Virus record (IMG/VR): IMGVR_UViG_3300036820_000057
Location: 1 to 34,183 of that record
Origin: a virus
Direction: 5' to 3' (one strand)
DNA length: 34,183 nt
Under the pieces are notes generated by a model. That model saw nothing but the letters and a program-made list of their open reading frames with translations. It made no database searches and was not told the DNA's origin. A program made the position numbers and the translations under genes. Of this stretch, positions 1 to 34,183 are shown in pieces (position 1 is the first letter of the stretch; each line of letters starts with the position of its first letter).

Positions 1-127
1 AGACCAGCGTTGACGGCAAATAACTCGCCGGGATCAGATTCGAGGCGCTGTAGCTCGTTCCCCACGCGGTACAGGGCGTTCCGGTGCACACGGCGATTCC
101 GGGAAGCGACGGCCAGGTCATCGAACC
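1..127. repeat. Direct repeat copy 1 (perfect, 127 bp, may extend left)
   Basis: Bases 1-127 are identical to 646-772. The offset of 645 bases is 215 codons, so the copies are in frame inside the fibre-like gene. The first copy touches the window edge and may be longer. After base 127 the two copies diverge at once, which suggests recent duplication or gene conversion of a repeat unit. Confidence 0.9.
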
Positions 128-1300
128 GCCGCTCACGGACTCGCATTGTCCATCGGCGGGCACATAGGCATATCCGGCAGTTGCGCAGCCCGTCACTCCA
201 AAAAGAAACGTGGGCAGGTTTGCAGCCACCGCAGCCACCAGTTGCCCACTGGAATTTGTTCCGACGAACAACGCCGAGGCAGGCACCGAAACACCGTTGA
301 TTTTCGTGCAGGTCATCGCGCCTGCGCTGCTCAGTGTGCAATCGCCACTGAGCGCCTGTGCCGCGTAAGCCGTGCCTCCGGAGTTGCCGACAGGGATTTT
401 GCCCGCGGCGGGAGCGGTGGAAGGCATCACGGCGGCGTTCGTGGGTGTGAACCCGAGCGCGGTTTGAAAATAACTTGCGGCCTGAAACGCAGCGGTGCCA
501 AAGGCCGTGCCGCCGCTTTTGGTGCAGGCGATCGCCCCGGACGCTGTCCAGGTGCAATCGCCGGACAGAAATCCCGAGGGCAGTTTGATGCTGGCGCTCG
601 AGAAATCCTGCAGGTATGCGCCATAAGTATTGGCCTGGCCGGTGTAGACCAGCGTTGACGGCAAATAACTCGCCGGGATCAGATTCGAGGCGCTGTAGCT
701 CGTTCCCCACGCGGTACAGGGCGTTCCGGTGCACACGGCGATTCCGGGAAGCGACGGCCAGGTCATCGAACCCGACCCGCCGGCCGCGGTACAGGTCAGT
801 GTCGTCAGATTGCAGGTAAATCCACTACCCAGCGTCCACGCACCGGCAATCCCATTGATCGATTGCACATAGTTGACGGTGGGCAACGGCGCGAGGCTGG
901 GAATCCAGTTATCGAAGTTATCGACGCCGGCTGAGTACCAGTAGTTACTCGCGCTGGGCTGCACGCAGGTTGCCAGAACTTTGCTGCCGTTCTGCGTTAT
1001 GAGCGTGACGCGCCAGCAGAGGTTCTGTGGCGTGGTATATGCCGAGTCCGGCATCGACGGGATACTGAAAACACCGTTGGTCACCAACGCGCTCACCGGC
1101 GTTGGCGTGGCCATGCCGCCGCCGGGCTTGCGATAGACGGAAGGCGTATTGCCGCTGCTCACCGGCGTCCAGAGGATGGTTCCGTTCGCAGGAGAATTCC
1201 CGTCCTGCAGGAGATTCGCCGCGACGGGCACAGTCTGCGCGCAGATGAATCTGCCAGACAAAAACAACGCCGCCAAAAACCACCAGACCGAAGTCCTCAT
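1..1300 (-). CDS. Secreted fibre-like protein, partial at its C-terminus (runs off the left edge)
   Basis: About 433 residues are visible; no stop occurs before the window edge. The start at 1300 overlaps the stop of the upstream collagen-like gene in an ATGA junction. The N-terminus is a typical signal peptide: [22 protein letters not shown], with a hydrophobic core and an AQ cleavage zone, here 22 residues split as [11 protein letters not shown] then [11 protein letters not shown]. The rest is rich in Ser, Thr, Gly and Ala with scattered Cys pairs, as in beta-rich phage fibres and surface adhesins. A block containing [12 protein letters not shown] and [19 protein letters not shown] occurs twice, 215 residues apart, so the protein is built from long repeats. 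A role in adhesion or host binding is inferred. The signal peptide argues for export as a surface protein and against a cytoplasmically assembled virion fibre. Confidence 0.7.
646..772. repeat. Direct repeat copy 2 (perfect, 127 bp)
   Basis: This is the second copy of the in-frame intragenic repeat (copy 1 at 1-127). It encodes the stretch from about MTWPSLPG to SYLPSTLV of the fibre-like protein. Confidence 0.9.
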
Positions 1301-2679
1301 TGGTGCACCATCATTCTTGGCAGGGCAGTGCTGCTCCAGGCGGCCAGAGCGTTATACGTGAATGAAGGAAGAGTCTGCGAGGAGGGAAGCACGCCGCCCG
1401 TGCCGCTGCCATAGCTTGCCGCGCTGATCGGCAACGCATTGTAAAGGTCGTAGCCAAAGACAGACTGCGCCGCGGAAAGCGCCGTCGGAATCACCGTGTC
1501 GCAGGAACTCGCACAGTTCGAAGTGATCTCAAGGACATAGGTTCCGTTCAGCACCTGAGCGGCCTGCGTCGGCGCCGCGCAGTAGTTGCCAGCGCTTCCG
1601 CTCAGAGCCGAGTGAATCGTGCTGCCGGCGATTCCACCCCAGGACGCGACGAGCGCGCCTGTACCGATATCCCTTAACGCGAGGTCGTACTTATTCGACG
1701 TGTTGTCGTTCGGATTCAGCAGCACACATAGATAATTCCCTGTCACCGGAGGCGAGATGTTGATCGCCCATCCCGTGATGGTGCCGTTTGGGATACTGAG
1801 CGTGTTGGCCGTATCGAACTCGCACTCCGAATTCGCGCACGCATAGATTGCGGTGGCGCTCACTGTCCCGGCCGGTCCCTGCACGCCGGCCGCAGTAATA
1901 TTCCATGTCGCAATACTGCTTCCCGAACCGCTGGTCAACGTCACGCTGACCGTCATTGACCCGGTACCGGAGTTATAGGCCGTGACCTGGCCCTCCATCC
2001 AATTGGTTGTCGCGGCACTATCGACGATCCGCACCTGCTGGCCCACCCCATATGCGAGGCCGGCCTGCGTGGTCAGCGTCCTGCTTCCCGTTGCAATGCT
2101 GAGCGATGTAGTGGATGTAGCGTAATAGCCTGAGCCGGCAACACCCGTTGACCCGGTTGGTCCGGTCGGACCCGTAGGGCCGGTTGACCCGGTCGGACCC
2201 GTAGGGCCAGTGGGTCCGGTGGCGCCCGTAGGTCCCGCCGGGCCTTCGGCCAGTAGCGCGGTAGTCGCGCCGGTGGGCACGTAGGTGTTGAAGCTCCATG
2301 TCGAGCCGGATGGCTGCACGCAGGGCATCACCGGCGCGGTCCATCTGGTCACTGTGTCCACGATGGTCGTTTTGTAGCAGAAATTTGCGGGGTTGGTGAC
2401 CGTGGTGTCGATTACCGTGCAGGCCGATCCATTGAGCGCCGTCGTGATGGCGCCAGCCGCAATCAGACAGACGGCCGCGCGCGGAACGATAAGGCCGCCG
2501 CTCGATCCAATATTCACAACCAGCGGGTTACCGTTCAAATCCGTGGGTTGCATCACGATCTGGCCGCGCTGCAATGGCGCGTCGTCCGCACCCAGAATCG
2601 TCGTGCCCACAATGTGCGTGGTCTGGGCGGTGAGTGTGGCGGCAAAGAAACAAAGGGCTGCTGCGCCGGTGAGTTTCAC
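1297..2679 (-). CDS. Secreted protein with collagen-like GXY repeats, fibre-like
   Basis: 460 residues from a GTG start at 2679, preceded by AGGAG at good spacing and overlapping the upstream stop (GTGA). Residues 1-19 look like a signal peptide ([19 protein letters not shown]). Residues 20-145 form a Cys-containing domain with the motif [13 protein letters not shown] near its end. About residues 146-184 are 13 collagen-like triplets, mainly GPT and GST. The remainder is a Gly/Ser/Thr-rich beta-type region. Collagen-like stretches trimerise phage fibres and bacterial surface proteins. The signal peptide favours a secreted or surface-displayed product. It sits between two other fibre-like genes at the end of the early operon, which is an unusual place for virion fibres. 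Confidence 0.75.
2128..2244 (-). repeat. Collagen-like triplet repeat tract
   Basis: Thirteen in-frame GXY triplets ([12 protein letters not shown] x3, GST, GPT x3, GST, GVA, GSG). At DNA level the tract is a near-tandem repeat of gacccggt / ggacccgtagggcc elements, prone to expansion and contraction by slippage or recombination. Confidence 0.85.
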
Positions 2680-3068
2680 TGAGCTTCTCCTTGTGCCACC
2701 GCGATCGCCTCCCACGTCGTGCTGGTGGGCGCGGCGGGCAGCACGAACGCAGCAAACTCCGCGAACACGCCGAGGTTCTGCCCCTCATTCGTGAAAAAAT
2801 AAGCGCCGTATTGCGCGGAGGGATTGTCGAGCGAATCGATCGTCGACTCCAGCGTGCAGGCCGCGATAGTGAGCGTGGTGCCGCTCTGCGTGCAGCTCAC
2901 AGCCTGGAAGAAATTGTCATTTTGCGAGGAGTCCTGGCTGGGCACGCCGGCGGCGTTGAGATTGCCATCGGCGGAAACGAAACTTTCCAGCGCGTAGATC
3001 CGCAACTGCACATCGGGGCCGAGTTCCCAGTTGGAGAGAGCTGCGGAGGCGATCGAGATCACAGCCAT
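2676..3068 (-). CDS. Unknown protein upstream of the fibre-like genes
   Basis: 130 residues; not recognised. It has no signal peptide, unlike the next two genes. The sequence is acidic and beta-rich, with two Cys (VSCTQSG, IAACTLE) and aromatic stretches ([20 protein letters not shown]). The stop overlaps the GTG start of the collagen-like gene, so the two are probably translated together. It is separated by 27 bases, including the palindrome TCGCGCGCGCGA, from the upstream regulator gene. A structural or fibre-associated role is inferred from context only. Confidence 0.6.
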
Positions 3069-3095
3069 AAGGCTCGATCTTCGCGCGCGCGAGAG

Positions 3096-3647
3096 CTACA
3101 GGGGGTCCGTAGCGGCGAAACTGCGCGGGGCGGTGAACTGTTTATCCCGCGTCTCATCGAGAAAACGCTTAAATGAAATCCGCGAGATGCGCCAGGTGTA
3201 TTCGTTGCTCAGACGGTAGGCGTCGAAACGGCCTTCTTCGATCAGGTAAACCAGCGGACGGCGGTCATCGTAGCCTAGCGCCGCCAGGGCCTCGGCCGAA
3301 TAGATCGTGTCGATCAGCGGGAAAGGCAGCAGATCTTCGTCGCGATGGCGCAGCATGGGATTGTCGAGATTGGGACGTCGGTCCGCGATGCCGTATTCTG
3401 CGCGCAGAAAGTTGCAGAACGCCACGATCGACGAATAGAGCACACGCTTGCGCGCCTGATGGCGGTAACTCACCAGCCTGATAGCCGCGTGGCCGTCGCG
3501 ATAGCCTTCCTCGGCCATGCGATACACCGTGCTCACGCCCACGCTGAAGATGCGCGCGGTGCGAGCCACATCCACATACTCCTTCTCCGCGAAGGGCAGG
3601 ATGAGCTGGGCATCGGAATGATTTTGGGTCTCGAAGCCGTCGCTCAC
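3096..3647 (-). CDS. Two-domain excisionase/MerR-like DNA-binding protein
   Basis: 183 residues from GTG 3647, chosen because GGAGG lies 8 bases upstream and the start overlaps the GemA-like gene's stop (GTGA). Residues about 24-50 (EYVDVARTARIFSVGVSTVY) read as a MerR/excisionase winged helix-turn-helix. A second similar unit lies near residues 115-170 (YSAEALAALGYDD, then VYLIEEGRFDAYRL). Such proteins bind DNA as architectural or regulatory factors. In Mu the gene after gemA is mor, the middle activator. This protein does not look like Mor, but its position is compatible with control of later genes. That role is inference. Confidence 0.65.
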   Translation of the reverse strand: MSDGFETQNHSDAQLILPFAEKEYVDVARTARIFSVGVSTVYRMAEEGYRDGHAAIRLVSYRHQARKRVLYSSIVAFCNFLRAEYGIADRRPNLDNPMLRHRDEDLLPFPLIDTIYSAEALAALGYDDRRPLVYLIEEGRFDAYRLSNEYTWRISRISFKRFLDETRDKQFTAPRSFAATDPL

Positions 3648-4156
3648 GTCTTCTTCCTCCAGATGCCCTTTCGCTGCGCGATGCCTTTGAGCGCCCACCA
3701 CACTTTATTTGCATCGGATGTCGTCCGGATGGATTTGTCCGAGCGCTTCGCCAGCGGCGAGCGGGACGATTCCAGAAATTTGCGAAACGTCTCCTGCTGC
3801 CAGCCGAGCTGGTCCAATAGACGTTGAATGCGCGCCAGATCCTCACTGGTGGCGATCTGTGGCGTCGCGGAGTACTCCGCGCCATCACGACGCCCATCGA
3901 GTCCTGCGCGCCGCGCCTGAGCCGCGCCGGGCCGCTTTACGGCGGGAGCCTTGACGCCGAGCTGCTGCTGGATGCTGTCGATCAGGAAACCGGCGTCGTC
4001 GGCCGAGAGAGTCTTGAAACTCACAATCTCCCGCTGCAGCCGCTCGCTGGCCCAGCGGATCCGCGACTCGCGATCGGAGCTCAGCCCGATCTCGTGCCGT
4101 GAAAGTTGGCTGTAGAGTACCTGCAGCCTGGCGAGTTGTGGTTTCGTGATCTGCAT
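3644..4156 (-). CDS. GemA-like phage regulatory protein (DUF1018-type)
   Basis: 170 residues, close to the usual size of Mu gp16/GemA relatives. The N-terminal half is helical (MQITKPQLARLQVLYSQLSR onward, including SFKTLSADDAGFLID). The C-terminal half contains SEDLARIQRLLDQLGWQQ and a basic end with DANKVWWALKGIAQRKG. The late-early position, just before a DNA-binding regulator, matches GemA upstream of mor in Mu. GemA modulates host DNA topology and gene expression. The assignment rests on composition, helices and context and not on an alignment. Confidence 0.5.
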   Translation of the reverse strand: MQITKPQLARLQVLYSQLSRHEIGLSSDRESRIRWASERLQREIVSFKTLSADDAGFLIDSIQQQLGVKAPAVKRPGAAQARRAGLDGRRDGAEYSATPQIATSEDLARIQRLLDQLGWQQETFRKFLESSRSPLAKRSDKSIRTTSDANKVWWALKGIAQRKGIWRKKT

Positions 4157-5315: not shown

Positions 5316-5524
5316 GCGATCCTCCGGTCAAAATGTGAAAAATGTACAGAATTTACAATTTCGCGCGGTTGGCTCGCGGGCGGCTTTCTCGGCGTGCGCT
5401 CGCGATGAAAGACGGCCTGGAATGCGCCGGACGCGATGCGGCAGCGCTGCCCGGGCGCCGCGCCGCAAACCGGGCACGCAGCGTGCATCCATAAGGCGCA
5501 GCGCGCGCTGGCGTCGCGCTTCAC
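5312..5524 (-). CDS. Small zinc-knuckle protein
   Basis: 70 residues from GTG 5524, which overlaps the stop of the receiver gene (GTGA). C17-x2-C20-x7-C28 plus H40 (CPVCGAAPGQRC, then FHRERTP) matches a small Cys3His zinc-binding motif common in phage proteins. The N-terminus KRDASARC and the tail are basic. Nucleic-acid or protein binding is likely; role unknown. Confidence 0.6.
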   Translation of the reverse strand: MKRDASARCALWMHAACPVCGAAPGQRCRIASGAFQAVFHRERTPRKPPASQPREIVNSVHFSHFDRRIA

Positions 5525-5997
5525 GCCGTCCTCCGCTCGGCCGGGAAATCGGCGGCTGGCATCGGCGTGGGCTCGGCGGCCGGCATGATCTTGTACAGGC
5601 CTCCGTGGCGTGGGCTGCCCTTGCGCGGGCCGCGCTTGCGGGCGCTCATCACCTTGACGCGCTCCAGCAGCTCCTGCGTGGAGCAACTCTTCCGCGCGAT
5701 CACGGCGTCGGCTGCGTGCGGCTCGTCGGACGCCGCGGCTCCAGTGTGCAGCAGAATCATGGGCACATGATTTTGCATGCCTTTGAGCCGCTCGATAAGC
5801 TGGCATCCATTCATCTGCGACATTGTGGCCTTGACCAGCACCAGATCGATTTGAGGCGCCGTAGCAAAGATGGCGATGGCCTCCTGCCCATTCGCCGCCG
5901 CCAGCACGCGATAGCCGTTGGTTTCCAGCATGAACTTATCGACGGAGAGCGCCCGCTCGTTATCGTCCACGTACAGAAGTACTTTTTTGGGTCTCAT
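5521..5997 (-). CDS. Stand-alone CheY-like receiver, degenerate (phospho-acceptor Asp missing)
   Basis: 158 residues. Positions 4-120 follow the receiver fold: VLLYVDDNE with the acidic pair D11-D12, then DLVLVKATMSQMNG, LLHTGAA with T85, and ARKS with the conserved K103. The site that should hold the phosphorylated Asp has Lys (K56). So the metal pocket, switch Thr and Lys persist but the acceptor does not. A basic tail (SARKRGPRKGSPRHGG) follows in place of an output domain. GGAG and a 9-base gap precede the start. Pseudo-receivers act by phosphorylation-independent protein contacts. An effect on host two-component signalling is inference. Confidence 0.8.
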   Translation of the reverse strand: MRPKKVLLYVDDNERALSVDKFMLETNGYRVLAAANGQEAIAIFATAPQIDLVLVKATMSQMNGCQLIERLKGMQNHVPMILLHTGAAASDEPHAADAVIARKSCSTQELLERVKVMSARKRGPRKGSPRHGGLYKIMPAAEPTPMPAADFPAERRTA

Positions 5998-6449: not shown

Positions 6450-6450
6450 G

Positions 6451-6684
6451 TCAGCCTTCTTTCGGGTAGCGCATCCTGCCACCGAATCGCCGGATCGCAA
6501 AATTTAGGCCGCTGATCTGGCCGTCGTAGTACTCGCAGGCATGGCAAGTACCGCAAACCTTGAGCGAACCCATACGGTCATGTGTGCTGTGTCGCTCCCC
6601 ATAGGCCCGTATGTGAATGTTCTTGTATTCGCGCAGCGCGCGGCGCAACGCATAGAGTTCAGCGCGGATCTCAGCTTTGGTCAT
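6451..6684 (-). CDS. Small protein with CxxCxxC cluster
   Basis: 77 residues, ATGA overlap with the upstream gene. The N-terminal half is a basic helix (AEIRAELYALRRALREYKN). C44-x2-C47-x2-C50 (CGTCHAC) with nearby His residues (H37-region ERHSTHD) suggests metal binding. The C-terminus is basic (RRFGGRMRYPKEG). Family not recognised. Confidence 0.55.
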   Translation of the reverse strand: MTKAEIRAELYALRRALREYKNIHIRAYGERHSTHDRMGSLKVCGTCHACEYYDGQISGLNFAIRRFGGRMRYPKEG

Positions 6685-6854
6685 GTAAGTGTTTCCTCGC
6701 CGGCGCTTTCGCGCCACATCTTTACTTCGTCGATCAATTGCCGAATCTCGCGGTTGCGCTGCTGCACGGCAGGCGGCAGGTATTTGTCGCGAAGCTGATG
6801 CGCGTGCAGCGTATCCAGCGTTTCCAGTTGCGCCGCGCTGAGGTACTTAGCCAT
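6681..6854 (-). CDS. Short helical protein of unknown function
   Basis: 57 residues from ATG 6854 (MAKYLSAAQLETLDTLHAHQ onward), mostly charged helix, ending RESAGEETLT. It overlaps the preceding gene by 8 bases and the next by ATGA. No family recognised; accepted on coupling and composition. Confidence 0.5.
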   Translation of the reverse strand: MAKYLSAAQLETLDTLHAHQLRDKYLPPAVQQRNREIRQLIDEVKMWRESAGEETLT

Positions 6855-7320
6855 TGCCGGCCTCCGGGCTGGCTTCAAGTTCGTGGGAGATCTGGCCGAA
6901 CAGCGCGCGCAGATCGTGCAGGTTGCGGATGACGCGGATGCGCTGAGCCAGGGCGACAATCTCTTTCACGTAGTCGGCGGTGCCGGAGATCCGCTCCTCG
7001 GCCGTGACGGCGAAGAAATATCCGCCGTCGTCGCCATCGCGGCTGGCAACGATGGGCAGTCCGAATGTCACGACGAGCGCGCGCACGTCGGCCTTGATAT
7101 CGCGGCGACCCCCGCCCACCCTGGCGATCACTTCGGCGATGCTCATGGCCTGCAGCTTTCCCTGGCGGCCGCGCAGACATTCCAGCACGCGGCGCTGGCG
7201 CGGGGTCAATTCGCAACTGCAGTTGCCCATCAGCGCGTCGTGGACGCGGCGCTGGTTATCGCCCACTGCATCGCGGCGGAGCTCCTCGTCGGTGCGCGTC
7301 TCAAACAGAGTGCCGTTCAT
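6847..7320 (-). CDS. Winged-helix-type protein, probable DNA-binding
   Basis: 157 residues from ATG 7320 (ATGA overlap with the gene before). Residues about 37-105 (LTPRQRRVLECLRG, then MSIAEVIARVGGGRRDIKAD, then GLPIVASRDGDDGGYFF) fit a winged helix with a beta-hairpin wing. A helical C-terminal part (ADYVKEIVALAQRIRVIRN) may dimerise. Such proteins are common in phage early regions as regulators or replication accessories. The DNA target is unknown. Confidence 0.6.
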   Translation of the reverse strand: MNGTLFETRTDEELRRDAVGDNQRRVHDALMGNCSCELTPRQRRVLECLRGRQGKLQAMSIAEVIARVGGGRRDIKADVRALVVTFGLPIVASRDGDDGGYFFAVTAEERISGTADYVKEIVALAQRIRVIRNLHDLRALFGQISHELEASPEAGNG

Positions 7321-7592
7321 TGGATCGTCTCCTTCGGATCGGAATCCGGGGGCGTCTCGGGAGCCGCCTCGGCCGGAGGCGCGAGAAGCGATTGAATCTC
7401 GCCCCACGCGGCGGTGGTTGCCCGCGAGAGCGCCACAAGGTTGATGTCGGCAACGACAGTCGCGGGCAGGCAGCCGTACAGAATGGCGGAGCGCTGCATC
7501 TGCGTGAACTCGCGCAGCCCGCGATAGTTCGCGTCGAGCAGCTCGTAAAGCAGGTTCAGCCGGATGCGTTCTTCGGGCGTGAAGGTTTTCAT
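7317..7592 (-). CDS. Unknown early protein
   Basis: 91 residues from ATG 7592 (ATGA overlap). A helical N-terminal two-thirds (MKTFTPEERIRLNLLYELLD, YRGLREFTQMQRSAILYG, ALSRATTAAWGEIQ) is followed by a Pro/Glu-rich tail. No catalytic motif or family was recognised. Not predicted to cross the membrane. Confidence 0.5.
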   Translation of the reverse strand: MKTFTPEERIRLNLLYELLDANYRGLREFTQMQRSAILYGCLPATVVADINLVALSRATTAAWGEIQSLLAPPAEAAPETPPDSDPKETIQ

Positions 7593-9995: not shown

Positions 9996-10303
9996 TGCCC
10001 ACCCCCGAGAACGCGCTGGACGGGGCCGCCGGGCAGGAACGCCGTGGCGATCTCAGCGAAGATGTAGATCGCCACCAGAATGGTGGCCACCATGACGGCG
10101 TTATGCGCCATGCGGCCGGACAGTTCAAGACACGCGCCGATGCGCCGCGCGTGGCTGTCGCTCGGCGACCAGCGCATCAGCCGCTGCCAGCAAAGGCGCG
10201 GGAACACGAAGATGCGCCGCCCTGTTGGCCACCTGCCGGTGAGAAGGTAATAGTCAATCTCGACGCCCAGACGCTCTTTACCTCGGACGATAAAAATCTT
10301 CAT
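9992..10303 (-). CDS. Small membrane protein of unknown function
   Basis: 103 residues. The N-terminal half is basic and aromatic (MKIFIVRGKERLGVEIDYYL, then RRIFVFPRLCWQRLMRW). The C-terminal half has one transmembrane helix (AVMVATILVAIYIFAEIATA). It directly follows the MuB-like gene with an ATGA overlap. Not recognised. Confidence 0.5.
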   Translation of the reverse strand: MKIFIVRGKERLGVEIDYYLLTGRWPTGRRIFVFPRLCWQRLMRWSPSDSHARRIGACLELSGRMAHNAVMVATILVAIYIFAEIATAFLPGGPVQRVLGGGQ

Positions 10304-11274
10304 GCGACGCGCTCCTTTCTCTCATCCACGGCCGCACATGCATCCATCGCCGGATCGGCGGCCCGCGGCATCTGCTTTTGCGTTTCGCGAATGTAGGCCA
10401 TGAGCCGGCCGATGGAGAGATACCGCTGCGTGCCGTCGTCGCTGCGGATGTCGACGTGCGCGGCCTCGATGATGGAATGCGCCTTGGCGGGGTCCAGGCC
10501 GGGCAGCTCGGAACGGATAATGCCGGCCGCCTCTTCGGGCGTGACGGCAGGGAGAGCGATTTTGGCAACGACGCGCCGCTCTAACTGCTCGAGATCGCCG
10601 GTCCACTTATCGAAGACCCTGCGCAACTGGTGCGACCCGGCGAAACAGATGCTCCAGCCCAGCTCGTCATACAGCTCGCGTACCGTCTCAAAACATTCGA
10701 CGGAAAGATGCTGCGCCTCGTCGAGGTAGAGCGCCGCGCGGCGGCCGGCGTAGTCATAGCGCAGATTGCTGATGGTGCGTTCAATGCCAAGGTCGGCGAT
10801 GGAGCCGCAGGCAATGGCGATGCGGCGCATGAGGTCGCGGCGGGTGATGGCGGCGCGGCAGTAGATTCTGAAAATCTCCACGCCTTTGCCGGCGTATTCA
10901 GGAAGCAGAGCGCGAGCCACATCGGTCTTGCCGCTGCCCGGAGGCGCATAGGCCATCACAATGCACCTGCCGTCGCACATCCGGTCAAGGATTCTGCGCA
11001 TCGCGCGCGTGTTGCCTATCTCATAAAGCGTGCCGGTGAATTGATCCAGGCCGGCGTCGTGGCTCGTGCCAAGGAAGCGCAGGATGGCTTCGCAGATGGC
11101 GGTCTCTTTCGATTCCGCTCCGCGCCGATATTTGCCGAGCAGGAACTGACTGAAGGTTGAGTAGTGGTAGCCGATGCGGCGCGCGAAATCGGCGGGCGCC
11201 ATGCCGCTGCGGCGCAGGTAACTTCGCGCGTGATGACGCACTTCGGTGGCGTTGATTGAGATCGAGTCGGACAT
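10300..11274 (-). CDS. MuB-like transposition AAA ATPase with N-terminal helix-turn-helix
   Basis: 324 residues, close to Mu B (312). Residues 10-50 are a Cro-like helix-turn-helix (MAPADFARRIGYHYSTFSQF). The ATPase core has Walker A at 110-117 (APPGSGKT) and Walker B around 180-187 (ALYLDEAQ), followed by LDEAQHLSVECFETVRELYD. The FAGSHQLRR stretch near 215 fits sensor 1, with ERRVVAKIALP beyond. MuB-type proteins bind target DNA, recruit the transposase and give target immunity. The gene starts directly after the transposase stop (TGAATG), with GGAG inside the transposase end. Confidence 0.9.
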   Translation of the reverse strand: MSDSISINATEVRHHARSYLRRSGMAPADFARRIGYHYSTFSQFLLGKYRRGAESKETAICEAILRFLGTSHDAGLDQFTGTLYEIGNTRAMRRILDRMCDGRCIVMAYAPPGSGKTDVARALLPEYAGKGVEIFRIYCRAAITRRDLMRRIAIACGSIADLGIERTISNLRYDYAGRRAALYLDEAQHLSVECFETVRELYDELGWSICFAGSHQLRRVFDKWTGDLEQLERRVVAKIALPAVTPEEAAGIIRSELPGLDPAKAHSIIEAAHVDIRSDDGTQRYLSIGRLMAYIRETQKQMPRAADPAMDACAAVDERKERVA

Positions 11275-13113
11275 TCATTCTCCTAAAAGTTTTTCAACGA
11301 ACTCCGCGGGCGTCTGTGGCGCCGCGATAGGTTTAGTGGGGCGCAGCCGGGGCTTGCGCTGCGTGACGATGCCGGCGACATCGCCGGGAAGTTCGAGTCG
11401 CGAAGCCATGGCCTCAAGCGGAGACAGCGCGCCGTTCGATCTGGCGACGCGGCTGATCGTGGTGAGAGTTTCGCGCGTAGCTTTTTCGAGGCCGCGCCGC
11501 GTCCTGAAGCTCTCCGCGACCTGCTGCTGCGTGCGCTGGTTGCCGGGCGCGAAGTGCGCCAGATCCTCCACGCGCAGCCACGCCAGAAAGCAGCCGTCCG
11601 TGTCGAGGGCCGCGGCGCACTCCCAGTCGTTGGGATCGTAGGCCACCACAATTTCGCGCTCGTTGCGTTCATGGATGGTCATCCAGCCGGCCTGATCGAC
11701 GGGCTGGTACCGGCGCTTGTTGAGCGTGATCGCGCATTCGCGGACCTGCCGGGTCTGGCGTTCGGCCAGCAACAGCGCCAGCGCGGCCGGATCGGGTGCG
11801 GGCTTTTGCTCGGGGTTGCGATTGCCGTTGAAAACCTGCAGCGGCGATCCGCCCTCCATGCCTTCGCCGGTGTGCGGCGTGTCGTTGTACTCCTCGATCC
11901 ACGCAAGGCACGCGACGATGAAACGGCTGGCCAGCGGGTGGCGGCTTTCGGCGACGCGGCCGGCGCGCAGCAGGCGCCGGTGATCCATCATGGCGACGGA
12001 AGTTGCATCGGGCCGCGTGAAGGGATTGCCGCTGGTGTAGGTGGGCCAGCACTTGTCAAAGCGCTCGTGTAGCGAGCGGAAGAAGCGCTCGACGTGCTTG
12101 GATTGCGGATGGCGCGGAAGGCAGTGCGTGACGGCGATGCCCAGCCGCGCCAGAAACCCGGTGTGGCCGATATCTTCAAGCTCGGCCTTCCACCATCCTT
12201 GTGGCGCCAGCGCCGACTCCCGCAGGTAGCCGGGCATCGCGCCGCGCGCGATCTTCTTGTAGTCCTTGCCGTTGTCGACGTAGATGTGTTCCGGCGGCCC
12301 GTGGCGGAAGATGCCGCGGCGCATGGTTGCGGCGATGGCGCGCGAGCTGCCTTCCCACGCCCAGCTCGCGCCGGCCACCAGACGGGAGCGGTAGTCAAGC
12401 ATCGCGGAAAGCCGGATGCGGATCGGCGCGCCCCACTCGACATCTTCGAAAATGTCATTACAGCACTCGACATCGTGAATCATGTGGTCGCCCACCCAAA
12501 CCTGATTCGCCCACACGTCGGTGTAGGCGCGGCGCAGGTATGCGGCCATGCGTTCGCGATAAGCCTTGCGGCCCTGGCGCGCGTAGACGGTGAGCGCCGC
12601 CGGCATCTGCTTCAGCCAGGCGCGCACGGTTTCGTAGCTGGGCGCTTCTTCCTCTGGAATTTCCAGGAGCAGCAGATCGCGCACGATGGCTTCGTAAGCC
12701 ACGCGCACGCTGGTGCGCTCGTCGAGAAAGAGATACGCGGCCAGCCATGCTGCCTTTGGGTAGGCGGCGAAGAAGCGGCTGGTGTTTTTATCGCGGCGCT
12801 GCCGGTCGGCGAGGGCCGGCAGGCCGCCTTCACGGAAGGCACTGAGCCAGTTAAATAATGTGCCTTCGCTGAAGCCCGAAGTTTCCGATGTGAATTTGAC
12901 GAGACGCGTGAGACTTGTAACGGGCGTTCCGTCTTTGAGGCGCAGCGCGCGGTAGCGCGTCGCGCCGGAGGTGTAATCCAGAAGCGGAGCGATGATCTGC
13001 ATACGCGTCTCGGCCTGCGCTTCGGCTTCGGGATCGGTGAGCGCCACGCGCTGCGGTCGCGCCAGCGAGGCGGGAGCAAAGGGCAGAAGGGAGAGCTGGG
13101 GCTGCGCGCTCAT
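11275..13113 (-). CDS. Mu-type DDE transposase
   Basis: 612 residues, near Mu A (663). The N-terminal part (residues 60-175) has helix-turn-helix units (SEGTLFNWLSAFREGGLPAL, YETVRAWLKQMPAA). The RNase H-like core has D209 (VWVGDHMIHDV), D280 (IYVDNGKDY) and E342 (KHVERFFRSL), with RHPQSKH before the Glu, as in integrase-type DDE enzymes. A Mu-type beta-barrel region (VAYDPNDWECAAALD) and a helical, basic C-terminus likely contacting the ATPase follow. It catalyses end cleavage and strand transfer in replicative transposition. It overlaps the preceding gene by ATGA. Confidence 0.95.
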   Translation of the reverse strand: MSAQPQLSLLPFAPASLARPQRVALTDPEAEAQAETRMQIIAPLLDYTSGATRYRALRLKDGTPVTSLTRLVKFTSETSGFSEGTLFNWLSAFREGGLPALADRQRRDKNTSRFFAAYPKAAWLAAYLFLDERTSVRVAYEAIVRDLLLLEIPEEEAPSYETVRAWLKQMPAALTVYARQGRKAYRERMAAYLRRAYTDVWANQVWVGDHMIHDVECCNDIFEDVEWGAPIRIRLSAMLDYRSRLVAGASWAWEGSSRAIAATMRRGIFRHGPPEHIYVDNGKDYKKIARGAMPGYLRESALAPQGWWKAELEDIGHTGFLARLGIAVTHCLPRHPQSKHVERFFRSLHERFDKCWPTYTSGNPFTRPDATSVAMMDHRRLLRAGRVAESRHPLASRFIVACLAWIEEYNDTPHTGEGMEGGSPLQVFNGNRNPEQKPAPDPAALALLLAERQTRQVRECAITLNKRRYQPVDQAGWMTIHERNEREIVVAYDPNDWECAAALDTDGCFLAWLRVEDLAHFAPGNQRTQQQVAESFRTRRGLEKATRETLTTISRVARSNGALSPLEAMASRLELPGDVAGIVTQRKPRLRPTKPIAAPQTPAEFVEKLLGE

Positions 13114-14938: not shown

Positions 14939-15217
14939 GTGACGAAGTGGGACAGAATTGAAATCGAAGAAGAGATCGGAGCTATGATGGACTCGATTCA
15001 AGCACCGGGAAGAAACGATCGAGGTTTTTCTATAAGCATCCACGCGCCGTGCAGCATTCAGGTTCACCATGGAGATTGCACTGGCGATCACGTTGACGTG
15101 CATATCCACGCAGGCGGCCCTGAGAGTCTGGAGCTTTCAGCAGCTTCAATCGCGGAGCTTGTCGAGGGTGCTATCGCGGGCACTCGACATGGCACGTCCG
15201 ATCCGGAAGGTAAGTGA
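14939..15217 (+). CDS. Unknown small protein in the lysogeny region
   Basis: 92 residues from GTG 14939 with GGGAG 7 bases upstream. The N-terminus is acidic (RIEIEEEIGAMMDSIQAPG). The middle is rich in His and Cys (ISIHAPCSIQVHHGDCTGDH, then VDVHIHAGG), which suggests metal binding. The C-terminal helix ends in a polar tail. It lies one base before the lipoprotein start, so the pair is probably co-expressed from the prophage. Not recognised. Confidence 0.55.
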   Translation: MTKWDRIEIEEEIGAMMDSIQAPGRNDRGFSISIHAPCSIQVHHGDCTGDHVDVHIHAGGPESLELSAASIAELVEGAIAGTRHGTSDPEGK

Positions 15218-15218
15218 C

Positions 15219-15836
15219 ATGAAGAGCGCTCTGTTGGGATTGATCTTTCTTTTACCGCTTTTCGCGTGTCAAAAAAGCCAGCAATCGCAGGCCGCAAGTC
15301 AGTCATCGCGATTGAAGCAAATGCTTAGCGAGACAGACGTTCTTCTCGTGAAGCATTTTTATGGAGAAAGTGATACGTTTGAGGACCGGGACTCGAAGTA
15401 CCCGGAGCTTAATCCGGGCATGTTGGGTATCGAACCGATTTGGGTCTACGAGCCTCAGAAGCAAGCGCAGGGCCTCAAGGGCGCGATTCTCAGAGTGCGG
15501 CAGTCTTACTTTTTCGATTCCGACGCCAGAATGCAGGGAGGAGAAAAAGCGGAGATAGCCCTCGATTTTGATGAGTTGCGGGATTTGAATAACTCCCTCC
15601 TCGCCCTACAAGCGAAAGATGCCGATTGGCGGACTGCACCTACGGGCGAACATATAGAAATGCAGTTTTCCTCGAAAGATGGATTCAGCTTGTCGGCATT
15701 TCATAGCCCAGAAACGCACGACGATGTGCTCTACTTCAAGATCGACGGACGGTCGGTTGGGATAAATGCGGGCAAGGTCCAGGACCTCATCAATGAGACA
15801 AATTCCGCGATTCAATTATTGAAAGCCAAGGGGTAG
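15219..15836 (+). CDS. Predicted lipoprotein, probable lysogenic-conversion gene
   Basis: 205 residues from ATG 15219. The signal MKSALLGLIFLLPLFAC with lipobox LFAC at residues 14-17 marks it for lipidation and the cell envelope. The mature part is acidic and globular-looking (WVYEPQKQAQGLKGAILRVR, then VLYFKIDGRSVGINAG). Its codon use is visibly less GC-biased than the structural genes, hinting at separate origin. Between repressor and lysis genes, such envelope proteins often alter phage receptors or exclude related phages. No family was recognised, so that role is inference. Confidence 0.7.
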   Translation: MKSALLGLIFLLPLFACQKSQQSQAASQSSRLKQMLSETDVLLVKHFYGESDTFEDRDSKYPELNPGMLGIEPIWVYEPQKQAQGLKGAILRVRQSYFFDSDARMQGGEKAEIALDFDELRDLNNSLLALQAKDADWRTAPTGEHIEMQFSSKDGFSLSAFHSPETHDDVLYFKIDGRSVGINAGKVQDLINETNSAIQLLKAKG

Positions 15837-32302: not shown

Positions 32303-34183
32303 ATGGGTGGCCAGACTGTACAGATCACGATCAACGTCACCGACGCGAACGCATCGCAGGCGGTCGAGCAGATCGTCACGCAGCTCAACGCGCTCGGGCC
32401 TGCGGGCCACGCAGCGGGCGCGGAAGCCGGCGCTGGTCTGGACGAGGTGGGCGAACACGCTCTCAGCGCAAAGGAGCAGGTGCGGCTGCTGAGCGAGGAG
32501 ATGGGCATTCACGTTCCGCGCGCCATGCAGAGCGTGATCGCCCAGAGCCAGATGCTGACGACGGTGATCGGCGCGATCGCGCCGGCTATGATAGCGATCG
32601 GCGGCGTCGACATCCTGATGCACATGGGTGAAGCGGTTTATAACGGCGTCGAGAAGTACATCATGCTCCGAGACGCGATCGCTGATTCGAATTCTGCGAT
32701 AACAAAGTACGGCGAATCGGCTGAGGCAGCGATGAATCGGGCCGCCGCCGCGACCGAGGACTATATCCGGAGGACGCAAGGAGCGGCGGCCGCCGATCAA
32801 GCTCATTTAAATAGATACGAGGGCACGGCCGTTCCCATCTCGCTCTATAGCGATCCGAAATTTCAGAATCTCCCGGACGCAATGAAGGGGAATTTTGAAA
32901 AGATCAGCGGCGAGTCGGTGATGCCCAAAGATCTCGACGCGACGATCCAGAAACTGAAGGAGTACGAAGAACAGCAGGAAAAAATTCTCGCGACGATGCA
33001 GGCCGCGAAGTCTCCCGCGGTACTCGGTGGTCAGTATAGTGTGCCCCAACTGCGGCAGATGGGCGAACAGGAGCAAGTAGTAGACGCAGGGAGGACGGTC
33101 ATCGATGTTCTGACAAAACAGCAGGACGACTACGCAAAGGAGGTCCGGGACCAACAACAGAAAATAGCGGACGACAATAAGGAGAAAGCGGACGAAGCAA
33201 TCGCAAAAGCGAAGGAAAAGACCGACGCCATTCTTGCGCTCGAAACCAGCGCGCGCAACGCGCAACTCTCCGGAGACGCGCTGCTCGAAGCGCAGCGCGA
33301 GCAGGCCATCGACAGCTTTGTGAGTAAGTACGGTCAATCGCGCGCGGCCATTCTTGCGATCGATACCGAGTACATACAGAAAGAGGCTTCGCTCTGGAAA
33401 CAGCAATCGGAAGAGGCTGACAAAGCGATGCGCGCCGCACAGCAGGGCGCGGATCAGCAGGCCCACACTGGCAGCGGAAGCATTCAGTTTGAATTAGATC
33501 AGAGCCTGCGCGATGTCAGCCAAAAACAGTCGAACGGGATGCAGCCTGGATACGCCAACGATGAGCGCGACGCGGCCTATCAGACAGCGAACACAAAGAT
33601 TCTGGCTGCGCAAACGGAGTTCGAAAATCAGATGGCGCAGATCGGCCAGCACGGCGACGCCCAGCAGATCGAGGGTTACGCGCGAATCGCGAGCGAAGCC
33701 GACAAGTCCCTGAAGCAGATCACCGACGCATGGACCAGGTACGAAGATTCCGTGCGCGGGAGCGCTGGCCTCACCGTCGATGAGGAGCAAAAGAAAAACG
33801 CCGCAATTTCAGCTCTCGACCAAAACGCGTTGCGGGAAATGGAGCAGCTCCACCAGCGCACGATGGAGCAAATCGGAAAGGACGAAGAGCAGGCTGCGCG
33901 TTATTCGCTTGCGGAGTGGCAGCAGGCGCAGCTCCGAATCATAGACGAGTACCAGGATCGCGTGCAGCACATTCAGGATCTCGAGAAACAGCAGGACGCG
34001 GCTCTTAATGCCGACATGCAGGCGCACGCGGCCAACTTTGCCGCAGACCAGCAAGCCGAAGTGATGGCCGCACAGGACGCGAATGCGCAGATGGTTGCCG
34101 CGCGCCAGCAAATGAACGCCGAACTCCAGCAGAGCGACGAAGAGACGCGCGACAAACTGGCGCAGGGCCTGCAGAGCATGTTC
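32303..34183 (+). CDS. Tail tape measure protein, partial (runs off the right edge)
   Basis: 627 codons are open to the window end. The N-terminus MGGQTVQITINVTDANASQA then VEQIVTQLNALG is typical of tape measures. A hydrophobic segment (LTTVIGAIAPAMIAIGGVDI) lies near residues 85-105. The rest is a Gln/Ala/Glu-rich coiled coil with repeated QQ and EQ pairs (RDQQQKIADDNKEKADEAIA; LEKQQDAALNADMQAHAANF). Codons here are slightly more A-rich than in head genes. It sets tail length and enters the host cell. Confidence 0.8.
   Translation, partial: MGGQTVQITINVTDANASQAVEQIVTQLNALGPAGHAAGAEAGAGLDEVGEHALSAKEQVRLLSEEMGIHVPRAMQSVIAQSQMLTTVIGAIAPAMIAIGGVDILMHMGEAVYNGVEKYIMLRDAIADSNSAITKYGESAEAAMNRAAAATEDYIRRTQGAAAADQAHLNRYEGTAVPISLYSDPKFQNLPDAMKGNFEKISGESVMPKDLDATIQKLKEYEEQQEKILATMQAAKSPAVLGGQYSVPQLRQMGEQEQVVDAGRTVIDVLTKQQDDYAKEVRDQQQKIADDNKEKADEAIAKAKEKTDAILALETSARNAQLSGDALLEAQREQAIDSFVSKYGQSRAAILAIDTEYIQKEASLWKQQSEEADKAMRAAQQGADQQAHTGSGSIQFELDQSLRDVSQKQSNGMQPGYANDERDAAYQTANTKILAAQTEFENQMAQIGQHGDAQQIEGYARIASEADKSLKQITDAWTRYEDSVRGSAGLTVDEEQKKNAAISALDQNALREMEQLHQRTMEQIGKDEEQAARYSLAEWQQAQLRIIDEYQDRVQHIQDLEKQQDAALNADMQAHAANFAADQQAEVMAAQDANAQMVAARQQMNAELQQSDEETRDKLAQGLQSMF

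Follow-up and report, generated by a model that had tools for sequence, protein, structure and literature searches.

The virions of tailed phages are taken to be completed in the cytoplasm. In streptococcal phage SM1 the tail proteins PblA and PblB reportedly end on the bacterial surface as adhesins; they are said to have no signal peptide and to need the phage lysis proteins for release, in another host and with another tail type, and resemble the proteins described here in being tail-type phage proteins that may reach the cell surface. For Lom of phage lambda we know of no tail-fibre homologues that lack a signal peptide. Lom is an outer-membrane protein whose gene lies between J and the tail fibre genes, that is, a tail-region gene with an exported product outside the virion (PMC12309495). 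A signal-peptide gene within a phage tail region is what it has in common with the family described below (PMC12309495), whereas Lom differs in being a beta-barrel made in lysogens, neither fibre-like nor equipped with collagen repeats; no OmpX/Ail-type beta-barrel Pfam match was found in any family member scanned. Lys44 of fOg44 is a Sec-exported endolysin of a tailed phage (PMC6116005), a likeness in that the host Sec system serves one late function of the phage, although endolysins of this type are lysis enzymes, neither fibres nor receptor-binding proteins. In cyanophage A-1(L) the baseplate anchors fibres of both types (PMC10966104). A literature search whose scope mostly excluded subscription journals and preprints yielded no report of signal peptides in tailed-phage tail fibres.

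The DNA analysed here (the window) spans 34,183 bp and forms one linear IMG/VR record, and the left end of the phage therefore lies outside it. Matches of a MuA-like transposase (11275..13113, minus strand; phrog_310, E 6.6e-80) and a MuB-like transposition protein (10300..11274, minus strand; phrog_296, E 1.6e-28) mark it as a fragment of a Mu-like (transposable) siphophage. MuA, MuB and the early genes run leftward and the terminase, head and tail genes rightward, a layout (early genes facing out towards one end, head and tail genes towards the other) common to 17 viral contigs and to prophages in Acidobacteriaceae MAGs; through these prophage relatives, the host is presumably a member of the Acidobacteriaceae. 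The late operon ends with a putative tape measure gene cut by the window (32303..34183, plus strand), assigned from position and size, which has no significant PHROG match; relatives carry complete homologues of 1,000-1,200 aa. The names tape measure, distal tail and tip denote size, order and by-eye similarity unless a PHROG match is cited, and most sequences compared are metagenomic, with MAG binning that may be wrong. MuB is 23-65% identical among relatives compared with 44-85% for MuA, which suggests that MuB has been swapped by recombination. The early operon also includes a response-regulator-receiver-like ORF (by eye; 5521-5997) found at 25-41% identity in many relatives, and an ORF with a lipoprotein-like signal (LLGLIFLLPLFAC) at 15069-15836 adjoins the endolysin gene, a possible spanin or lysis protein.

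Three overlapping leftward genes, orfC, fibB and fibA, close the early operon, preceded by an HTH_17-type DNA-binding protein gene (3096..3701, minus strand) that in most relatives is the final early gene ahead of the fibre module. orfC (2676..3068, minus strand) encodes 130 aa without a signal peptide and is a candidate tail-attachment partner of the fibre. fibB (1297..2679, minus strand) likely starts at the GTG at 2679, the listed start at 2715 being further upstream, and encodes an exported-type fibre-like protein of 460 aa with 10 cysteines in its mature part. fibA (2..1300, minus strand; 63% to the fibA of relative G001), likewise an exported-type fibre-like protein, has at least 433 aa and is cut off by the window edge inside a repeat; because nucleotides 1-127 repeat nucleotides 646-772 within fibA exactly, the left edge probably marks a break in the assembly within that gene. 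The original prediction described two fibre-like genes with signal peptides, one of them carrying collagen-like triplets, coupled by overlaps to each other and to a third gene and co-directional with the early rather than the tail genes, and it holds in each respect: the N-termini of fibB (2626..2679, minus strand) and fibA (1238..1300, minus strand) are typical Sec signals, orfC and fibB have GTGA in common and fibB and fibA ATGA, and MuA, MuB and the early genes run leftward with them, opposite to the head and tail genes. The triplets (G-P-T/G-S-T, residues 145-182 of fibB; 2134..2247, minus strand) match Pfam Collagen at E 1e-5, just short of the curated cutoff, and bring fibB to PHROG tail-fibre families down to E 1e-10, a match resting on this collagen-like part. 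fibB does not belong to the Scl/Lcl collagen-like adhesins, scoring 21-24 bits against NCBIfam cutoffs of 325-500 through the triplets alone.

Signal peptides were called by inspection and a fixed home-made rule, that of fibB also by comparison with relatives and that of fibA by homologous positions in them. The signals end in L-x-A|Q in fibB, I-x-A|Q in fibA and mostly A-x-A|Q in relatives; the N-terminus of orfC has no such feature. A signal-peptide (SP)-like N-terminus is present on nearly all large fibre-type proteins of the group; it is missing from the G005 and G008 fibres and from five SP-less homologues. By the fixed rule, such N-termini at the first start occur in 1 of 160 virion-slot and 1 of 206 early-slot homologues, a rarity which argues that their presence on the fibres is not due to chance. 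The fibre signals are 37-44% identical compared with 52-80% in the mature domain, with a divergent hydrophobic core, a conserved A|Q cleavage-type site and the character of a signal kept; on their sequence features these are predicted to be cleavable signal peptides of Sec-exported proteins. The possibility that wrongly chosen start codons produced them was rejected: the SP-less homologues begin at the domain border, and the aligned SP-bearing fibres have no Met there.

An even number of mature cysteines is a mark of disulphide-bonded exported proteins. Of the 21 complete SP fibres in the first set, 20 have an even mature count (binomial p 1e-5), as do all 16 new, out-of-sample ones (binomial p 1.5e-5), p-values that are optimistic because the proteins have some N-domain cysteines in common; combined, 36 of 37 follow the pattern of exported proteins. 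In several SP fibres the signal itself contains a cysteine, and the count is odd for the whole protein but even for the mature part. Among other phage proteins with four or more cysteines, 98 have an even and 51 an odd count; many are orthologues and not independent. The median cysteine content of SP-bearing fibres is 1.9%, that of SP-less homologues 0.75% (p 4e-4); virion-slot proteins overall have 0.68%. Mature SP fibres thus appear to be under selection for paired cysteines.

AlphaFold models of orfC (pLDDT 82) and of the N-terminal, transthyretin-like domain of fibB (2260..2625, minus strand; pLDDT 77) have the same best PDB match, the A-1(L) tail fibre (8KEC), to about residues 1-104 of which both align. 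The match is closer for orfC (Z 9.7, 96 residues, 2.5 A; fibre residues 2-104) than for the N-domain of fibB (Z 7.5, 97 residues, 4.7 A), where at such a Z shared topology alone is possible, and where the next PDB matches are transthyretin-like domains and pilins. The A-1(L) fibre differs in belonging to a myophage of a cyanobacterium and, in the available part of the source, is not described as having a signal peptide (PMC10966104). A Foldseek search of BFVD with both models gave no E below 1e-3, with tail fibre entries among the top rows, and PDB profile searches with alignments A8 and A9 gave nothing significant.

SP fibres occupy more than one place in the Mu-like relatives. They lie at the early end in the window, G001, G002, G006, G011, G012, G014, G018, G020, L086, L091 and others, and after the tip gene in G007 and G010; in G005 and G008 a cysteine-poor, signal-less fibre follows the tip gene, and in G006, G014 and G020 nothing fibre-like was seen there. 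A search based on orfC located orfC-SP fibre pairs in the tail modules of other siphophages, in the order tape measure, orfC, SP fibre, distal tail (L092, L093, L103) or tape measure, orfC, SP fibre, second SP gene (L097). On the 72.5-kb contig that contains L098, a pair of SP fibres comes soon after the baseplate genes (by eye), and the first of the pair matches several tail-fibre PHROGs (phrog_454, E 8e-31). SP fibres stand in a tail or fibre slot in L092, L093, L097, L098, L103, L140 and L143, those of the window instead at the early end. The tape measure-distal tail slot holds an SP-less homologue in L136 and L139 and an SP-bearing one in L140, after which no further fibre-like gene was seen. 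Homologues that share this N-domain but have no SP match the tail-fibre families phrog_4201 (E 4e-97) and phrog_11419 (E 7e-51), and the N-domain family is therefore a tail-fibre family. In INPHARED, tblastn with the SP-less L136 fibre matched 41 phages via its C-terminal tail-fibre/spike region; neither fibB nor the L093 fibre had a match. The late operon of G020 carries an insertion of four SP genes between the portal and MuF genes (L072 15866-18091, 18084-18974 and 18974-19888; G020 C312 19885-20733), the first a fibA homologue (60%), which look like cargo.

The fibre N-domain profile matches 25 of 200 Acidobacteriaceae genomes (with five weak matches that are probably host proteins), 4 of 297 Acidobacteriota genomes and, among 398 genomes of the phylum of G018, the G018 MAG alone, which is labelled a beta proteobacterium and is possibly misbinned. 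The strong matches examined lie within or adjoin recognisable phage genes, the neighbourhood being short or only partly identified in L134, L151, L153 and L155; among weak matches (E above 1e-5), the five weakest examined are host TonB/CarboxypepD_reg-like proteins.

The window stops inside the fibre genes with the phage end outside view, and it had been proposed that a prophage end at 3069-3095 would make them host genes adjoining a prophage. A check in relatives placed the phage ends outside the fibres. Both phage ends carry a terminal motif (AATTCCTGTATTCA-like), and three relatives have the 5'-TG...CA-3' ends and 5-bp target duplications of Mu-like phages: the 39.5 kb G014 prophage (7066-46545, duplication GTTTG), the 40.4 kb G006 prophage (436-40809, TCCAT) and the G017 remnant (C95, about 152,840-168,552, about 15.7 kb, GCTGT). 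In G006 and G014 alike, the SP fibres occupy the stretch from the HTH gene to the early end. The G014 fibre gene (42423-45110) is inside the phage end, as is another SP gene (45407-46180), the outer neighbours being metH-like and ribD-like host genes (by eye). Because prophages bounded by target duplications contain the fibre homologues, the SP fibres are not host genes, and the strong N-domain matches examined in Acidobacteriaceae genomes are compatible with a prophage context; we reject the host-gene explanation as very improbable. The small G017 remnant retains MuA and MuB and has lost most late genes, and no fibre was found in it. In L046, a 336-aa gene (6450-7460; G006 38429-39439; phrog_3243, E 3.5e-51) lies between the SP fibre and the early end.

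By all sequence signs the proteins are, as originally predicted, fibre-like, phage-encoded and exported, and the SP fibres are apparently exported, disulphide-bonded proteins of the tail-fibre type. Phage origin, tail-fibre family, signal peptide and selection for paired cysteines have the support of the sequences; actual export, disulphide formation, a tail location for orfC and the joining of exported fibres to the virion we infer. Our preferred explanation, to which we give an even chance, is that fibB and fibA are Sec-exported, processed and disulphide-folded tail fibres that dock on virions at lysis via orfC. The host Sec pathway would carry both out of the cytoplasm, signal peptidase would remove their signals and disulphide bonds would form as they fold in the periplasm, while orfC, signal-less and encoded just ahead of the fibres, would remain cytoplasmic, probably as a piece on the tail. 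At lysis, virions with orfC-type attachment domains would pick up the exported fibres outside the cytoplasm, and docking through orfC or the N-domain would yield receptor-binding fibres on the particle; early expression in Mu-like phages would leave time for export. Against a virion part, the fibre genes of the Mu-like group are co-oriented with the early genes, which is unusual for a virion component.

Two readings had been offered at the outset, surface adhesins made in lysogeny or early infection and fibres added outside the cytoplasm. The latter fits better, because homologous pairs occupy tail modules elsewhere, because the sequences of SP-less homologues in the slot in question are those of tail fibres, and because the N-domains are similar to a tail fibre's N-terminal part. 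The former survives, with lambda Lom as its precedent, in the form of one-time tail fibres now placed on or secreted from the infected or lysogenic cell and never in the virion, where they might serve as adhesins, or prevent superinfection by covering or modifying receptors. Such proteins would be expected to have signal peptides and even cysteines; also in keeping with them are the end of the early operon beside the phage end (a usual place of cargo), the extra SP genes of G020 and the GDSL-esterase-like domains, below the Pfam cutoff, in the G010 and G012 fibres. This is the main rival of our explanation, and we find it the less likely of the two: the signal-less partner orfC accompanies the fibre into tail modules, the SP-bearing fibre of L140 is the sole fibre-like gene seen in a slot that is SP-less in L136 and L139, and G006 and G014 have no other fibre gene after the tip gene. 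Joining virions after lysis is favoured over staying on the cell surface. It is a good deal less probable that the hydrophobic N-terminus is an uncleaved anchor for cytoplasmic tail assembly rather than a working export signal; tail genes as neighbours and SP-less homologues beginning right at the N-domain would agree with an anchor, whereas the conserved A|Q cleavage-type site, a cysteine parity that is even once the signal is removed (including several cases with a cysteine in the signal) and a cysteine content about 2.5x that of the SP-less homologues speak against it.

More generally, we tentatively suggest that several unrelated groups of Acidobacteriaceae tailed phages finish their virions outside the cytoplasm, combining a cytoplasmic orfC-type piece with Sec-exported, disulphide-bonded fibres that would gather in the envelope and dock at or after lysis. 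Sec signals with paired cysteines, and SP-bearing and SP-less alleles in one slot, would mean either two-compartment assembly or repeated conversion of fibres to secreted proteins. Either outcome is testable and changes the search for receptor-binding proteins in soil phages, because annotators may file SP fibres as host adhesins. The fibre ORF of G012 (L048 7613-11998) opens with an N-terminus resembling that of orfC (MAPITIASVTIPA) and continues in frame into a signal-like stretch, as if it were the product of an internal orfC deletion.
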